From Sipunculus nudus (lineage: Eukaryota; Annelida; Sipuncula; Golfingiida; Sipunculidae), in NCBI GenBank assembly GCA_026874595.1, contig CM049307.1, forward strand, positions 45,691,678-45,755,677: a stretch of DNA of 64,000 bases, read 5' to 3'. Position numbers and translations under genes: made by a program. This document shows, piece by piece, positions 17,600-60,166 of this stretch (position 1 is its first letter; each line of letters starts with the position of its first letter). The notes beneath the pieces are model-generated. The model had not been told where the DNA came from. It did not search any database and saw only the letters and a program-made list of their open reading frames with translations.

Positions 17600-19372
17600 C
17601 AACATGATTATGTAAACTAGAATACGGGTAGTCGACAAGCGACTACGTGTATCCACCAAAATCAGAGAAGGACGGGTGAAGAGAGGCATTGATTGAGTGG
17701 CAAGGGGATATAGAGTTACATGTGTTAAATATTAGAATGGATCTCTGCCACATAAACATGATTGTAGGTGGCGCCACCTGTTATTTGAACGAGAAACTAT
17801 CCAAGATATATACACATATATTTCATGTGGAAAAGTCAAACCACTGCAGAGATATGAGTAATTTTATCCCACAGCAGACAAACAGATGGACACTGTGAAA
17901 AAATGGCTGCAGGTGGCGCCACCATTTTTGTTCATGTTATAAAGCTATCCAAGGGCTACATTTGTGTAAAGTTTTTTTCCTGATTGGTCAAACGGTTCCC
18001 GAGATATGAGCTTGGATGCCTGCAGCATAAACGTGAATGTAGGTGGTGCCACCTGTCATAAAATCAAGAAAGCTATCTAGGATGTATACACATGCCGAAT
18101 TTTAGGTGAATTAGTCAAACCACTGCAGAGATATGAGTGATTTTAACCCAAGGCAGATTAACAAATGGACACTGTGCAAACATGGTTGCAGGTGGCGCCA
18201 CCTTTTGTTGTGTATGTAATAAAGCTATCCCAGGGCTACATTTGTGTAAAAAATTTTTCCGGATCGGTCAAACGGTTCCTGAGATATATGGATTTATGTC
18301 TGGAGTGTTAACGTGAATGTAGGTGGCGCCACCTGTCATTAAATCAAGAAAGCTATCTAGGATGTATATGCATGCTGATTTTTAGGTGAATTAGTCAAAC
18401 CGCTGCAGAGATATGAGTGATTTTAACCCCAGGCAGATGAACAAATGGACACTGTGCAAACATGGTTGCAGGTGGCGCCACCTTTTGTTGTGTATGTAAT
18501 AAAGCTATCCCAGGGCTACATTTGTGTAAAAAATTTTTCCGGATCGGTCAAACGGTTCCCGAGATATATGGGATTATAAGTGGAGCGTTAACATGAATGT
18601 AGGTGGCACCACCTGTCCCAAAATGGAGAAAGCTATCTAGGATGTATATGCATGCCGAATTTTAGGTGAATAAGTCAAACCACTGCAGAGATATGAGTGA
18701 TTTTAACCCCAGGCAGATGAACAGATGGACACTGTGCAAACATGGTTGCAGGTGGCGCCACCTTTTGTTGTGTATGTTATAAAGCTATCCCAGGGCTACA
18801 TTTGTGTAAAATTTTTTTCCGGATCGGTCAAACGGTTCCCGAGATATATGGGATTATGTGTGGAGCATTAACGTGAATGTAGGTGGCGCCACCTGTCACA
18901 AAATCGAGAAAGCTATCTAGGATGTATATGCATGCCGAATTTTAGGTGAATTAGTCGAATCACTGCAGAGATATGAGTGATTTTAACCCAAGGCAGATTA
19001 ACAAATGGACACTGTGCAAACATGGTTGCAGGTGGCGCCACCTTTTGTTGTGTATGTTATAAAGCTTTCCCAGGGCTACATTTGTGTAAAATTTTTTTCC
19101 GGATCGGTCAAACGGTTCCCGAGATATATGGGTTTATGTGTGGAAACAGACGCACAAACGGACGCTGGGCAGAGACGAAAGGTCAGAGGTCAAGGTCACT
19201 TGGTTAGGCACCAGTTCACATGTGACCCGATAATTTGTGTAAGTTTCGGAAAAATCTGTCCAGTAGTCTCAGAGGAGTTCTCCGGAAACGAACGCGGAGG
19301 CGGCGGCGGCGGCGGCGGAACCCGGTCAAAAACATAGTATCCGCAAAACTTCGTTTTGGCGGATACAATTAA
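17600..19372 (+). mobile_element. Pearl/Helitron-like non-autonomous element with tandem-repeat core
   Basis: Three parts are visible. On the left is a perfect stem-loop, GTAGTCG-acaag-CGACTAC (17628-17646), followed by GTATCC. In the middle is an array with a 280-bp period (17736-19140). On the right is a unique tail with a (CGG)6 run (19301-19318) and a terminal stem-loop in which GTATCCGCAAAAC pairs with GTTTTGGCGGATAC (19337-19366) just before AATT. Tandem core plus 3' hairpin is the known layout of Pearl-type elements in bivalves, later grouped with Helitrons/Helentrons. The left boundary is uncertain. No Rep/helicase coding is present. Confidence 0.7.
17736..19140 (+). repeat. 280-bp tandem array with ten alternating GGTGGCGCCACC palindromes
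   Basis: About five units. Each holds two related half-units centred on the 12-bp palindrome GGTGGCGCCACC. One series (preceded by TGTA) starts at 17767, 18042, 18322, 18602 and 18882. The other (preceded by TTGCA or CTGCA) starts at 17912, 18191, 18471, 18751 and 19031. Spacing is 280 bp in all inner units. The palindromes at 18042 and 18602 each have one substitution. Conserved phrases between them are CGGTCAAACGGTTCCCGAGA and CACTGCAGAGATATGAGTGA. Confidence 0.9.
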
Positions 19373-25266: not shown

Positions 25267-25378
25267 TTTGTCTGTCCACCAGCATCACTGCACTGGCAGG
25301 GAAATATCCAGTCTTGGCCATCTGTCCCTCAGCGTTTACATATCCCCGCCATATACCGTCTGGCCTCTGCTCCAGAAC
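25267..25378 (-). CDS. CASKIN: Caskin SH3 domain, C-terminal half (fifth coding exon)
   Basis: A 112-bp exon. The acceptor is ttcctgtttaag (25379 onward) and the donor CAAA|gtaagc at 25261-25266. It starts in phase 0, directly continuing the exon at 36136-36230, and ends in phase 1. It encodes VLEQRPDGIWRGYVN, AEGQMAKTGYFPASAV, then MLVDRQ. Vertebrate Caskins have VLEQHPDGRWKG and GYFP at the same places. The tryptophan of the SH3 pocket (GIWRG) and the GYFP motif are present, but the tyrosine of the usual FPxNYV signature is replaced (FPASAV). In vertebrates the Caskin SH3 is described as unconventional in ligand binding; the same may hold here. Confidence 0.93.
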
Positions 25379-25890
25379 CTTAAACAGGAAACAAACCATC
25401 GGTCACATAACAAAAGAAGGAAATACATTACTAAGGTGTCCACCCTGATTAGCATACTGAAATATATACAGAACAAACAAAGTCGTTGCAAATTTCTGGA
25501 TTACAGTGGAATTTAAAGCTACATTGTTGTATATTGACAGAGCACCTGCTGATCTATGCAAAAATGAAAATAAATCAGACAATTAGGTTTGAAAGATGAT
25601 TATGACTGATTTTGACCAATGTTAGAGGTTTAGACATCCTGGAAGGTGCTGATGATGACTCTGGTATATTTAAATGTATATTTTTATATATTTTAATATA
25701 GGCCTTATTAATTTAAAATGAAATCAGGTTATCTTTGGCTCACCAACAACTACACTGAAACCCTAATCTGTTACTGAGAGAGTCCTCATCAAATAATCAG
25801 TGAACCTGCTGTTCAAATATTCCACATGATATTTCTGAAGTTTATAAGAATAACCTCTTTGTCAATGAAATAATAAAAGTTTCTGAAGGG

Positions 25891-36122: not shown

Positions 36123-36135
36123 TCTTTGCACTTAC

Positions 36136-36230
36136 TGTAATGTAGTCACCTTCCCTGAAGGTGAGGAAGTTCTGATCGTCTAAGTTATTGTAATCCTCTA
36201 CTGCCTGAGCATGCACGGCATAACTGGCAT
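36136..36230 (-). CDS. CASKIN: Caskin SH3 domain, N-terminal half (fourth coding exon)
   Basis: A 95-bp exon. The acceptor is ttctttcag (36231 onward) and the donor ACA|gtaagt at 36130-36135. It enters with AT, completing a codon begun by the ankyrin exon (G+AT gives Asp), and ends in phase 0. It encodes ASYAVHAQAVEDYNNLDD, then QNFLTFREGDYIT. This is the RT-loop half of an SH3 domain: AVEDY stands where ALYDY is usual, and FREGDYIT matches the (x)xxGDxIT strand of Caskin SH3 domains. Together with the exon at 25267-25378 it makes one SH3 domain of about 60 residues. The first ALYDY tyrosine is a glutamate here. Confidence 0.93.
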
Positions 36231-42556: not shown

Positions 42557-42665
42557 CTTTCAACAACTGCTTTAATTCTTTAGCTGCTCGACTCCCTGTG
42601 AACTTGTTTACAATATCCAAAGCTGTTTGGTCATAGGAGTTGGGCCGATTTACATCTGCTCCACA
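42557..42665 (-). CDS. CASKIN: Caskin last ankyrin repeat and cap (third coding exon)
   Basis: A 109-bp exon. The acceptor is tttctttgtag (42666 onward) and the donor AAAG|gtatgt at 42551-42556. It starts in phase 0 and leaves one base. It encodes [19 protein letters not shown], then [17 protein letters not shown]. Vertebrate Caskins have [11 protein letters not shown], followed by a (K/R)(D/E)IKQLLR helix, at the corresponding position, so this is the final ankyrin repeat with its capping helix, immediately before the SH3 domain. This is the clearest family signature in the window. Confidence 0.95.
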
Positions 42666-48900: not shown

Positions 48901-51269
48901 ATCCAAGATTTCTTGCCATCTGGAATACTATATGTTCTCTCTAAAACACTTACTAAATTTTCCCTTTTACCATTGAGGTTGCTCCTTTGCAAGAGACAGA
49001 AGGAGAGAGACAATATTTGCAAGAGACAATATTTACAGAATATGTAAAGGTGCATGAACCTTAAAGGCTCTTACAAAATATTAAGATAATTTTACTCATC
49101 AAGAACATGGTACAGAAAACTAAAATTCTTACTAATGATACTCAATCAAGACTCAACAATGAGTCATTGTTCAGAAGATACCAAGAGAGAAACAAATCAT
49201 ATATTGTACAAGCATCACTTGTAAAAATCAAAGACTACAAACAATTTTTTTTTCCTCCAGGATATAAATAATTGACAACAAACCAAAAAGTCTGAACAAT
49301 TGATAGATCCTGAGTGAAAAGCACAAATCCTCAAAGCAAATATTCAAATACAATTTGATGATGAATGGAAACAACAAACTTTACTCCAACACCCATCCTG
49401 GATTTCACATACCATGGAATGTTCCAATTTCAAAACACAGAAATGTCTGTGTACTGGTATCAGAAAAAAGACCATCCTGGTTCTAAACGCTCCAAAAGAT
49501 GCAATAAATTTGGTTTAGACATCAAATCTGTTCACTGAACAGCAGATAGAGGTTTTCAAGCAATGTGCATCTCAGTCTTATCATATGAGTGATGGATCCT
49601 CCTTCACAAATCATGTATATCCATAAGTGCACAAAAACCTGTAGTTACACTTTATTACCTTTGCAAATCCACTTCATAATGAAGTCACAAAAGCACAATT
49701 TACTTTATCAACTGTGCAACTTCACAAGAATAGACTAGACTGGCTGGTTTAGCTTGTCCAACACTCCATGAAGTCAAGAAAACACTATTCTGGCACTGAA
49801 TAAAAGGGCAATCCTGAGGATTTTGTGCACACTATACTTATATACCTCATTTGTTAGACATCCATAGCTATGCTGGCACTGTAGGTCTTCACACATGTTA
49901 AATCTTGGCCTTTTTCACTGACATAGTAGATTTTTACCAGCTGCATGCACTCCCAGGCACAACTTGAACAATGAATCACCAGTTCTCTATGGCTAACAGA
50001 ACAGCACTTCCTAACCAAATAGCATAGCGTGCTAAAGTGATGTGTTTATGAACTGGTGCATACTCATCAAGCTGTTTAGATTGATAATGATTGATATTTG
50101 TTGTGCCATTACTCACCTGTGGTGACTGATACTGATTGATCATATGATTATGAAAAGTTACTCCTGCAGTTGTGTGTTATAACAAATCACCAGTGCTGTT
50201 CAACAAGCTGCAACAGCAAATTTCTCAGCAGCAGATGTCTTTTAGCAGTCAGCAATGATCATAGGAACAGTACATTAAATTGTAGCTGGCTCTTAGTGAC
50301 CTATAAATACTATAGAATCTGAGCAGAAGCCATAAACACAATCCAGCTTGGCACAAACATTGCAAGGGTTGTACATTACAATATTCACACTTTAGAAACA
50401 GCCTGATATCAAGTGTCTGCTGAGTTTTTTTACGAGTTCCTTGTGTGCTATCACCAGTTCTTCTTCAGGACACTCCCGGCATGTTCTGCACACGTGAACT
50501 GAGTTTGCTAGAACCCCCGAGCTTGGGTTTTGTTTATTCTGTTATATATGGCTGTCCCCCTTTCCTCTCCTGCCCTCTACAGACTCACTACAAATAGTTT
50601 CTGATGAAACAGAAACAATGTTTATACACAGCAGTATGTAACTTGTTTTACTCCTGTTACAGAGGGGACACAAAGTAATTTGTCTCGGGTGTATCCATAT
50701 CAGCAACATTTGTCTAGAGACTATTATGTTCGATAAGGATGAGCCAAAATATACATAATAAACAAATGAAAAACAATCACAGTTTATCTATGAAACATTT
50801 GTCTGGGAATATTGTTCCAGAAAATACTGGATGATCAAAAGTAAAGAAGTTTTAACAGGTATATATATAACTAAGTAATGAAAAACATCAAAGAAATGTA
50901 ATCTATGAAATATCTGTCTGAGAATATCGTTCCAAATACTGGATTATAAAAGAATAAGTAGTCCCCATGACATGGAGTCATAGTGGCCAAGCTTCACTTA
51001 TGAAGGTGAATTTTACTAAATAGTAAATACCTGTTTTCAGTTCATTTGTAACAATTACAAGACAATGATATGCCATGTTTATAGGTATATTTCCTCAATT
51101 TAATATTAACCAAAGGAAGGAAAAGACATCATGAACAAAAGAAAATACCACAGCATAGAGTAAATGTGTTCTGATCAGTCCAGTTTTTTTTTATATCTGT
51201 TGTTAATGCAAAGCACCATCATATTTCAGCAAATGAGCACAAGAACTCGTGCTAGGCATAAGATTCCAC

Positions 51270-52924: not shown

Positions 52925-53005
52925 GGGAAACCTGTTTGAAAGACCACCTATCTAATAAGACCACCGGTGCAAAAAGACCACTTTTTTAAGGTCCCTCAGG
53001 TAATC
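52925..53005 (+). repeat. GACCACC-family fragment
   Basis: GAAACCTGTTTGAAAGACCA, TAATAAGACCACCGGTGC and AAAAAGACCACTTTTT resemble the copy at 60460-60640. Confidence 0.5.
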
Positions 53006-53238
53006 TTATAAAACAGGTATCACTTACTGTATACATCAAGTGAAGATATCTCAGTGTAATCACAATCTAACTCCCACCTTAATCTTAGCCACATGTGGAA
53101 AATGTTAACTCAATTATATGATAGGCACATGGTTTCAACCTTTCAAGATCTTTAACAGAAAGTATGGGAAACACTTTTGGGGAATAACAATAGATAGGAA
53201 TGAATTTATCGGACCTCAGAGTATGGTTGATGACTTAC

Positions 53239-53280
53239 CTCCATTAATAATTGTACAACATCTAATTTTTCATGACTTAC
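53239..53280 (-). repeat. CASKIN: 42-bp tandem copy of exon end plus splice donor
   Basis: On the minus strand, the last 33 bases of the ankyrin exon and the first 9 of its intron (GTAAGTCAT) are repeated once with four or five substitutions. The second copy again ends ATGGAG|gtaagtca (donor at 53231-53238). Using that donor adds 42 bases, an open in-frame extension reading [14 protein letters not shown], which repeats the [10 protein letters not shown] helix of the exon. Confidence 0.85.
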
Positions 53281-53389
53281 CTCCAGTAATAATCGAACAA
53301 CATCTAATTTTCCATACAAGGCAGCTTCATGTAAACATGTACCCTGAGCAGTCTGTAGGTTGATGCTAACACCCGCTTGTAAAAGTAAC
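53281..53389 (-). CDS. CASKIN: Caskin ankyrin repeat exon (second coding exon)
   Basis: A 109-bp exon. The acceptor is gtttgttgcag (53390 onward) and the donor CTGGAG|gtaagt at 53275-53280. Its first base completes AG+G (Arg) from the exon at 60039-60166, and it ends in phase 0. It encodes [17 protein letters not shown], then [19 protein letters not shown]: the outer helix of one ankyrin repeat, then the hairpin and both helices of the next. Vertebrate Caskins read LLLQAGIDIN and ALHEAAL(C/Y)GK at these places. In Caskin the ankyrin block is a cytoplasmic protein-interaction module. A second, in-frame donor 42 bases downstream would give a longer form (53239-53389). Confidence 0.95.
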
Positions 53390-57060: not shown

Positions 57061-57089
57061 TATCAATAAATGTGAGAGGACTGATATGA

Positions 57090-57240
57090 TAATCAATGGC
57101 CCTGACAAGAAATGATATGATTACTGATGGCTCTGACAAGAAATAATATGATTATTGATGGCTCTGACAAGAAATAATACGATTACTGATGGCTCTGACA
57201 GGAATTAATGATTATTGATCGCTCTGACAAGAAATGATAT
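57090..57240 (+). repeat. 31-bp minisatellite, about five copies
   Basis: The unit is near GATGGCTCTGACAAGAAATA then ATATGATTATT. The CTCTGACAAG phrase starts at about 57100, 57131, 57162, 57193 and 57222 (spacings 31, 31, 31 and 29). Confidence 0.9.
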
Positions 57241-60038: not shown

Positions 60039-60166
60039 CTGATTATGTCACTGTGACCGTTCTTGGCAGCTAAATGCAGGCAGCTTGTGCGACCATTGTC
60101 TAATAAGTTTCGACTGTCCGTCAGGAGTGCACCACAGCGATCTGTCTGTACCAGGAGTTCCACCAC
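60039..60166 (-). CDS. CASKIN: Caskin ankyrin repeat exon (first coding exon in window)
   Basis: A 128-bp internal exon. The acceptor is gggtgtgtcttcag (60167 onward) and the donor CAG|gtaaat at 60033-60038. It starts in phase 0 and leaves two bases (AG). It encodes VVELLVQTDRCGALLTDSRN, then LLDNGRTSCLHLAAKNGHSDII. Caskin1 has LHLAAKNGHIDIIR at the same place, preceded by a helix followed by a loop longer than in a standard repeat, as here. The gene must continue upstream, since the initiator methionine and the earlier ankyrin repeats are not in this window. Confidence 0.94.

Follow-up and report, generated by a model that had tools for sequence, protein, structure and literature searches.

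The locus described here lies within a 64,000-nucleotide stretch of the Sipunculus nudus genome (assembly GCA_026874595.1, contig CM049307.1), which is referred to as the window and whose own numbering is used for all positions unless otherwise indicated. An ankyrin-coding exon is found on its minus strand, and, in the minus-strand reading, this exon starts after TTTGTTGCAG at 53389 and ends ...GTTCGATTATTACTGGAG/GTAAGTCAT, where the slash marks the exon-intron border. The short form of the exon occupies 53281..53389 and consists of 1 nt of a split codon followed by 36 codons. The end of this exon is repeated in tandem, given that a 42-bp unit composed of 33 nt of exon and the adjoining GTAAGTCAT (copy 1, 53272..53313, minus strand) is directly followed by a second copy (53230..53271, minus strand), which ends in the same manner (...GTACAATTATTAATGGAG/GTAAGTCAT). 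The two direct copies, which run from 53313 to 53272 and from 53271 to 53230, differ at 4 of their 42 bases (K2P = 0.10), and all four differences fall in the exon-derived 33 nt, where copy 1 has G, T, G and C and copy 2 has A in each case. Three of the four change the amino acid (G to E, R to Q, and L to M). TRF delimited the same array at 53230-53315, with a period of 42, 2.0 copies, 90% matches, and a score of 144.

Chance similarity between the two copies was considered and rejected, as 38 or more matches in 42 would be expected at about 1e-17 per site for a fixed lag and independent bases, and at about 6e-11 over 64,000 sites and 100 lags under the same assumption of independence. When a 173-nt query that spans the border was run against the 1.43-Gb genome, it matched a single place, at 100% identity.

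Each copy carries the donor GAG/GTAAGT on the minus strand, that is, donor 1 at 53275..53283, with its first intron base at 53280, and donor 2 at 53233..53241, with its first intron base at 53238. The exon is 109 nt long up to donor 1 and 151 nt up to donor 2, the latter adding an in-frame extension of 14 residues (53239..53280, minus-strand reading). The upstream ankyrin exon (60039..60166, minus strand; ...TSCLHLAAKNGHSDIIR) ends ...HLAAKNGHSDIIR, and its phase fits the acceptor at 53389, where an arginine codon split as AG/G matches the 1-nt start of the duplicated exon. The next exon (42557..42665, minus strand; 36 residues) follows the acceptor TTTGTAG/TGT and starts in phase 0 with TGT GGA GCA (CGADVN), which joins either donor in phase. 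Most of what the initial annotation had proposed for this region thus agrees with the minus-strand reading and the TRF period of 42, including a tandem 42-bp duplication at 53231..53311, a period that is a multiple of three with an open insert, first intron bases at 53280 and 53238, a common acceptor at 42665, and the addition of 14 residues, among them a near copy of a helix, through the second donor. The ankyrin context that it had assigned to the exon is supported by the ankyrin exons found both in the window and in its upstream flank.

The two donors had also been called strong, and this holds, since the same 9-mer (GAGGTAAGT) is present at both sites and nowhere else on the window's minus strand, and 3 of the 4,027 minus-strand GTs score above them in a donor weight matrix. 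Given that the donors are identical letter by letter, any model that reads only positions -3 to +6 will score both alike. In the predicted RNA fold, both donors have a largely paired GU core, with unpaired probabilities of 0.04-0.06 at donor 1 and 0.14-0.22 at donor 2, and the means over the 9 nt are 0.37 and 0.45, respectively. Predicted pairing may therefore favour donor 2 slightly, an effect too weak to act as an arbiter. A very strong donor-like sequence (CAGGTGAGT) is also present on the minus strand at 50116, in the intron between 53238 and 42665, where it may represent a cassette exon or a decoy.

The domains encoded around the duplicated exon have the layout of a Caskin. The SH3 domain is divided between two matched stretches of the minus strand, 36130..36222 and 25268..25381, which do not give exact exon ends (the second exon probably starts at 25378), and its best relatives among 13 PDB sequences are Caskin-2 (9.9e-12) and Caskin-1 (1.3e-9), followed by Intersectin-1 (2.5e-5). 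The first SAM domain, with its two exons joined, is closest to Caskin-1 (4.9e-29) and Caskin-2 (3.8e-27) among 29 PDB matches, the first non-Caskin appearing at 8.6e-9, and the Pfam SAM_1 scores are 54.2 bits for this domain and 37.3 bits for the second SAM piece, against a cut-off of 23. When 100 kb on each side of the window was searched, SAM-like exons were recovered downstream with typed consensus seeds (C2:45669467-45667817; 1.2e-6, 0.0024, and 0.44), and ankyrin-like exons upstream at C2:45802332 (3.3e-4), 45796133 (7.7e-9), and 45766307 (0.02, weak). Ankyrin exons are also present within the window. Six repeats were counted by eye from the translations.

N-terminal ankyrin repeats, a Caskin-like SH3 domain, and two SAM domains after the SH3 are thus all found here, and ankyrin repeats, SH3, and SAM are common to this gene, Caskin1, and Caskin2. 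To our knowledge, the human Caskins have no 14-residue insert at the equivalent place. Further Caskin features are a conserved C-terminal tail and, in Caskin1 only, a CASK-binding segment. The published layout comprises six ankyrin repeats, one SH3 domain, and two SAM domains (PMC4994250). On these sequence similarities, the duplicated exon is assigned to a Caskin gene. In the genome, the SH3 query matches its own two exons alone, while the ankyrin query, for which 150 of 501 candidates were scored, matches its own two exons (1.1e-16 and 1.1e-14) and at least nine further loci with weaker ankyrin similarity, none better than 1.8e-4. No Caskin ankyrin structure was found among the 60 listed of 351 PDB matches, and, of the pattern matches in viral (158) and prokaryote (404) contigs, none was confirmed, as expected for an animal gene.

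At the level of the protein, the 14 residues of the insert duplicate the second helix of a single ankyrin repeat. A full ankyrin repeat has about 33 residues. By our count, the insert would follow the second helix of repeat six and precede the next loop and the C-terminal ALDIV segment, whereas in the short form the ankyrin spacing is the normal one. The long form would thus be read from its sequence as a repeat with a doubled second helix, rather than as an added repeat. The graded change in repeat number suggested by the initial annotation is not supported, then, given that the insert covers helix 2 of one repeat only, and its description of the locus as a clear example of a duplication-made alternative 5' splice site was overstated. 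In the spliced model, inclusion of the insert lowers the Pfam scores of Ank_4 (71.3 to 59.6), PF00023 (66.4 to 63.6), Ank_5 (64.4 to 60.8), and Ank_3 (54.1 to 52.1), and slightly raises that of Ank_2 (59.7 to 60.4), with three PF00023 stretches present with the insert and two without it. AlphaFold, run with no alignment on the contiguous 50 amino acids of exon plus extension, predicted a single helix from 3 to 49 (mean pLDDT 73.9; other models 50-63), which misses even the ankyrin loop, so this run is uninformative with regard to the insert.

The direction of change was assessed through the strongest further ankyrin match among those listed for the genome, which encodes GTALHEAALFGKLEVVKILLRA and is located on contig C14 (locus L004). 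The exon in question, which we take to be ANKS1-like, lies at 1501-1605 of that locus, and its likely donor is displaced by 4 nt downstream relative to that of Caskin. No tandem copy is present in 400 nt of this locus, where the best identity at lags of 20-100 is 0.65. The paralogue and Caskin copy 1 agree in 15 of 21 residues, and, where the two Caskin copies encode different amino acids, the paralogue has G, K, and L, against G, R, and L in copy 1 and E, Q, and M in copy 2. As the G and the L are shared with copy 1 (with K in place of R), the ancestral state seems to have been kept by copy 1, while copy 2 appears to have drifted, a polarity provided by one paralogue.

The four differences between the copies contain no signal of selection on the insert, and are too few to provide power. 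Neutral simulation gives a mean of 2.9 amino-acid changes per four hits, near the three observed, and purifying selection on the insert is accordingly not demonstrable; as 26% of the simulated copies with four changes contain a stop, the open frame is weak evidence. Similarly, both donors are intact in units that have drifted 9.5% apart, but a 9-nt site will survive about four times in ten when 4 of 42 bases change (our own arithmetic), which makes the conservation of the donors weak evidence as well.

The arrangement of the locus is best explained by a single tandem duplication of 42 bp that straddles the 3' border of the ankyrin exon, with 33 nt on the exon side and 9 nt on the intron side, and that left two identical donors, 42 nt apart, which would compete for the single acceptor at 42665. 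U1 snRNP could bind to either donor, and splicing would then yield two in-frame proteins, one with the usual ankyrin spacing and the other with 14 extra residues that form a second copy of helix 2. With equal donors, the ratio of the products would be set by position and by enhancers, and the intron-proximal donor at 53238, which gives the long form, is likely to be used substantially. We infer that both donors are used, at a ratio determined in this way, and that the insert is tolerated; the reading as a whole, that is, one duplication, both donors in use, and a substantial long form, is given a probability of roughly 0.55. Neither donor can simply be called the new one in this arrangement, since the native exon flank stays with the upstream donor and the native intron flank with the downstream one, so the second donor need not be the alternative one that the initial annotation made of it.

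The precedents for donor choice come from human systems, and their transfer to the Caskin of Sipunculus nudus is by analogy. According to PMC6002489, of two comparable donors the intron-proximal one is preferred, by a means that is not known, and in exon 1 of the estrogen receptor alpha, where two donors with MaxEnt scores of 8.6 each lie 33 nt apart, it is the intron-proximal one that is normally used. The same source puts the U1 footprint at 23 nt upstream and 12 nt downstream, which implies that a spacing of 42 nt would allow U1 to sit on both donors simultaneously. In DOK7 intron 4, as described in PMC5585400, an SRSF1 site upstream of two donors shifts the choice to the proximal one, and in a minigene in which the upstream donor was swapped for a copy of the downstream donor, the suppression of the upstream site was weakened, more so without the SRSF1 site, and the upstream copy was used more. 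This minigene suggests that truly identical donors can allow upstream use, which counts against a simple proximal rule.

Given this, two other accounts of the same donors have to be weighed, both of which are unlikely and neither of which is negligible. The duplication may be an inert relic, in which donor 53280 alone is used, copy 2 is plain intron, and the short form is maintained by the native exonic enhancers next to donor 1 and by selection on the ankyrin domain. The normal spacing of this form, the three amino-acid differences that look derived in copy 2 by comparison with the presumed ANKS1-like exon, and the weakened suppression of the upstream site in the DOK7 minigene are all consistent with such an outcome, although donor 2 has the same letters as donor 1, retains the native intron flank, and is at least as open in the predicted fold, and the proximal preference reported for equal sites (PMC6002489) would itself draw splicing towards it. 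On the other hand, that same preference, together with an extension that is in frame and open, would be expected if the border had shifted, with donor 53238 being used nearly always, the long protein constitutive, and donor 1 buried within the exon. Such an outcome, which is of the same low order of probability, would amount to an exon extension, or a shift of the intron border through duplication. It is similarly doubtful that the long form is the default, with a border moved 42 nt downstream through competition between equal donors, a sixth repeat with a doubled second helix, and the ancestral form reduced to a regulated minority isoform in neurons. The 14 residues would be put between helix 2 and the following loop, four of the five ankyrin Pfam scores above the cut-off drop, and donor 1 has not been weakened although it would be free to be, all of which speaks against a shifted border.

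Far less probable than either of these is an artefact of the assembly or of a haplotype. The duplication is known from one assembly, but its copies differ at too many bases for a simple stutter, and the locus is found at one place, within a 98-Mb contig. The least probable account is that the 42-nt interval from one donor to the next (GTAAGT...TTAATGGAG) is itself spliced out as a tiny GT-AG intron, with the donor re-formed in a recursive, stwintron-like manner, to give the short mRNA. The end of copy 2 has the AG/GT of a proto-splice site, as in the tandem-duplication model of intron gain outlined in PMC3443670 and PMC2891723; inspection, however, revealed no pyrimidine tract, and the branch-like TTAAT is only a few nt from the AG. 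The smallest animal introns known are about this long or longer. No retrocopy of either junction was found when 30-nt junction patterns with up to three mismatches were searched genome-wide (0 and 0 places). The use of both donors after a single duplication is retained as the preferred reading.

Tandem repetition is common in the vicinity. In 264 kb, made up of the window and 20 flank pieces, 33 array rows with periods of 20-150 were found, low-complexity units having been dropped, and these were merged by eye into about 20 places, or one per 13 kb, which cover about 1% of the sequence. A satellite-like array (17834-19144; period 280, 4.7 copies, 91% matches) lies between the SH3 and SAM exons of the Caskin gene, and a 31-bp array (57082-57240; 5.2 copies) is located in the intron upstream of the duplicated exon, with 31-bp arrays also filling part of another locus (L030). 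A 17-bp minisatellite (AAAGACCACCGATCCAA) is present at 52939-52981, near the duplicated donor.

About 20 array places in 264 kb imply that such duplications should recur throughout the genome. If this density holds over 1.43 Gb, and about 100,000 donors are assumed, many hundreds of donors would be touched by chance, before selection. The kind of event is ordinary, and the Caskin case is a neat one, in that length, frame, and donor all fit. It constitutes a natural minigene, with identical donors 42 nt apart and nearly the same 33 nt before each, in which the role of position in the choice of a 5' splice site can be tested, and its long form would also test the tolerance of an ankyrin domain to a doubled helix.

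An identical case, in which a donor is duplicated across an existing border, was not found in the literature searched, from which subscription journals were mostly absent. The closest functional parallels are exon 1 of the estrogen receptor alpha and DOK7 intron 4, which, like the Caskin exon, have two nearby donors and one acceptor, the spacing being 33 nt, 11 nt, and 42 nt, respectively. In the parts of PMC6002489 and PMC5585400 available, the natural donors of these two genes are not described as derived from duplication, unlike those of Caskin, and the DOK7 donors differ in strength, with one choice frame-shifted, whereas the Caskin donors are equal and both in frame.

With regard to structural change, tandem GYNGYN donors are described as two close donors that produce small protein variation (PMC1779574), although these lie 3 nt apart, whereas the Caskin donors result from a 42-bp duplication. 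In Drosophila, 9 of 31 novel near-intron-pair positions are attributed, in PMC2891723, to intron sliding via nearby cryptic or tandem sites; here, by comparison, the donor side alone could move, by 42 nt. In the intron-gain model, as presented in PMC3443670 and PMC2891723, a short tandem duplication that carries AG/GT makes new splice sites, and a length that is a multiple of three permits differential splicing in the form of intron retention. The likeness to Caskin is the creation of splice sites by a short duplication with AG/GT, but the intron-gain duplication sits inside an exon and yields a whole new intron, whereas that of Caskin spans an existing border and yields an extra donor only. 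The Caskin event is, then, a new example of a well-known type, and a simpler sister case of the splice sites that are made by duplication.
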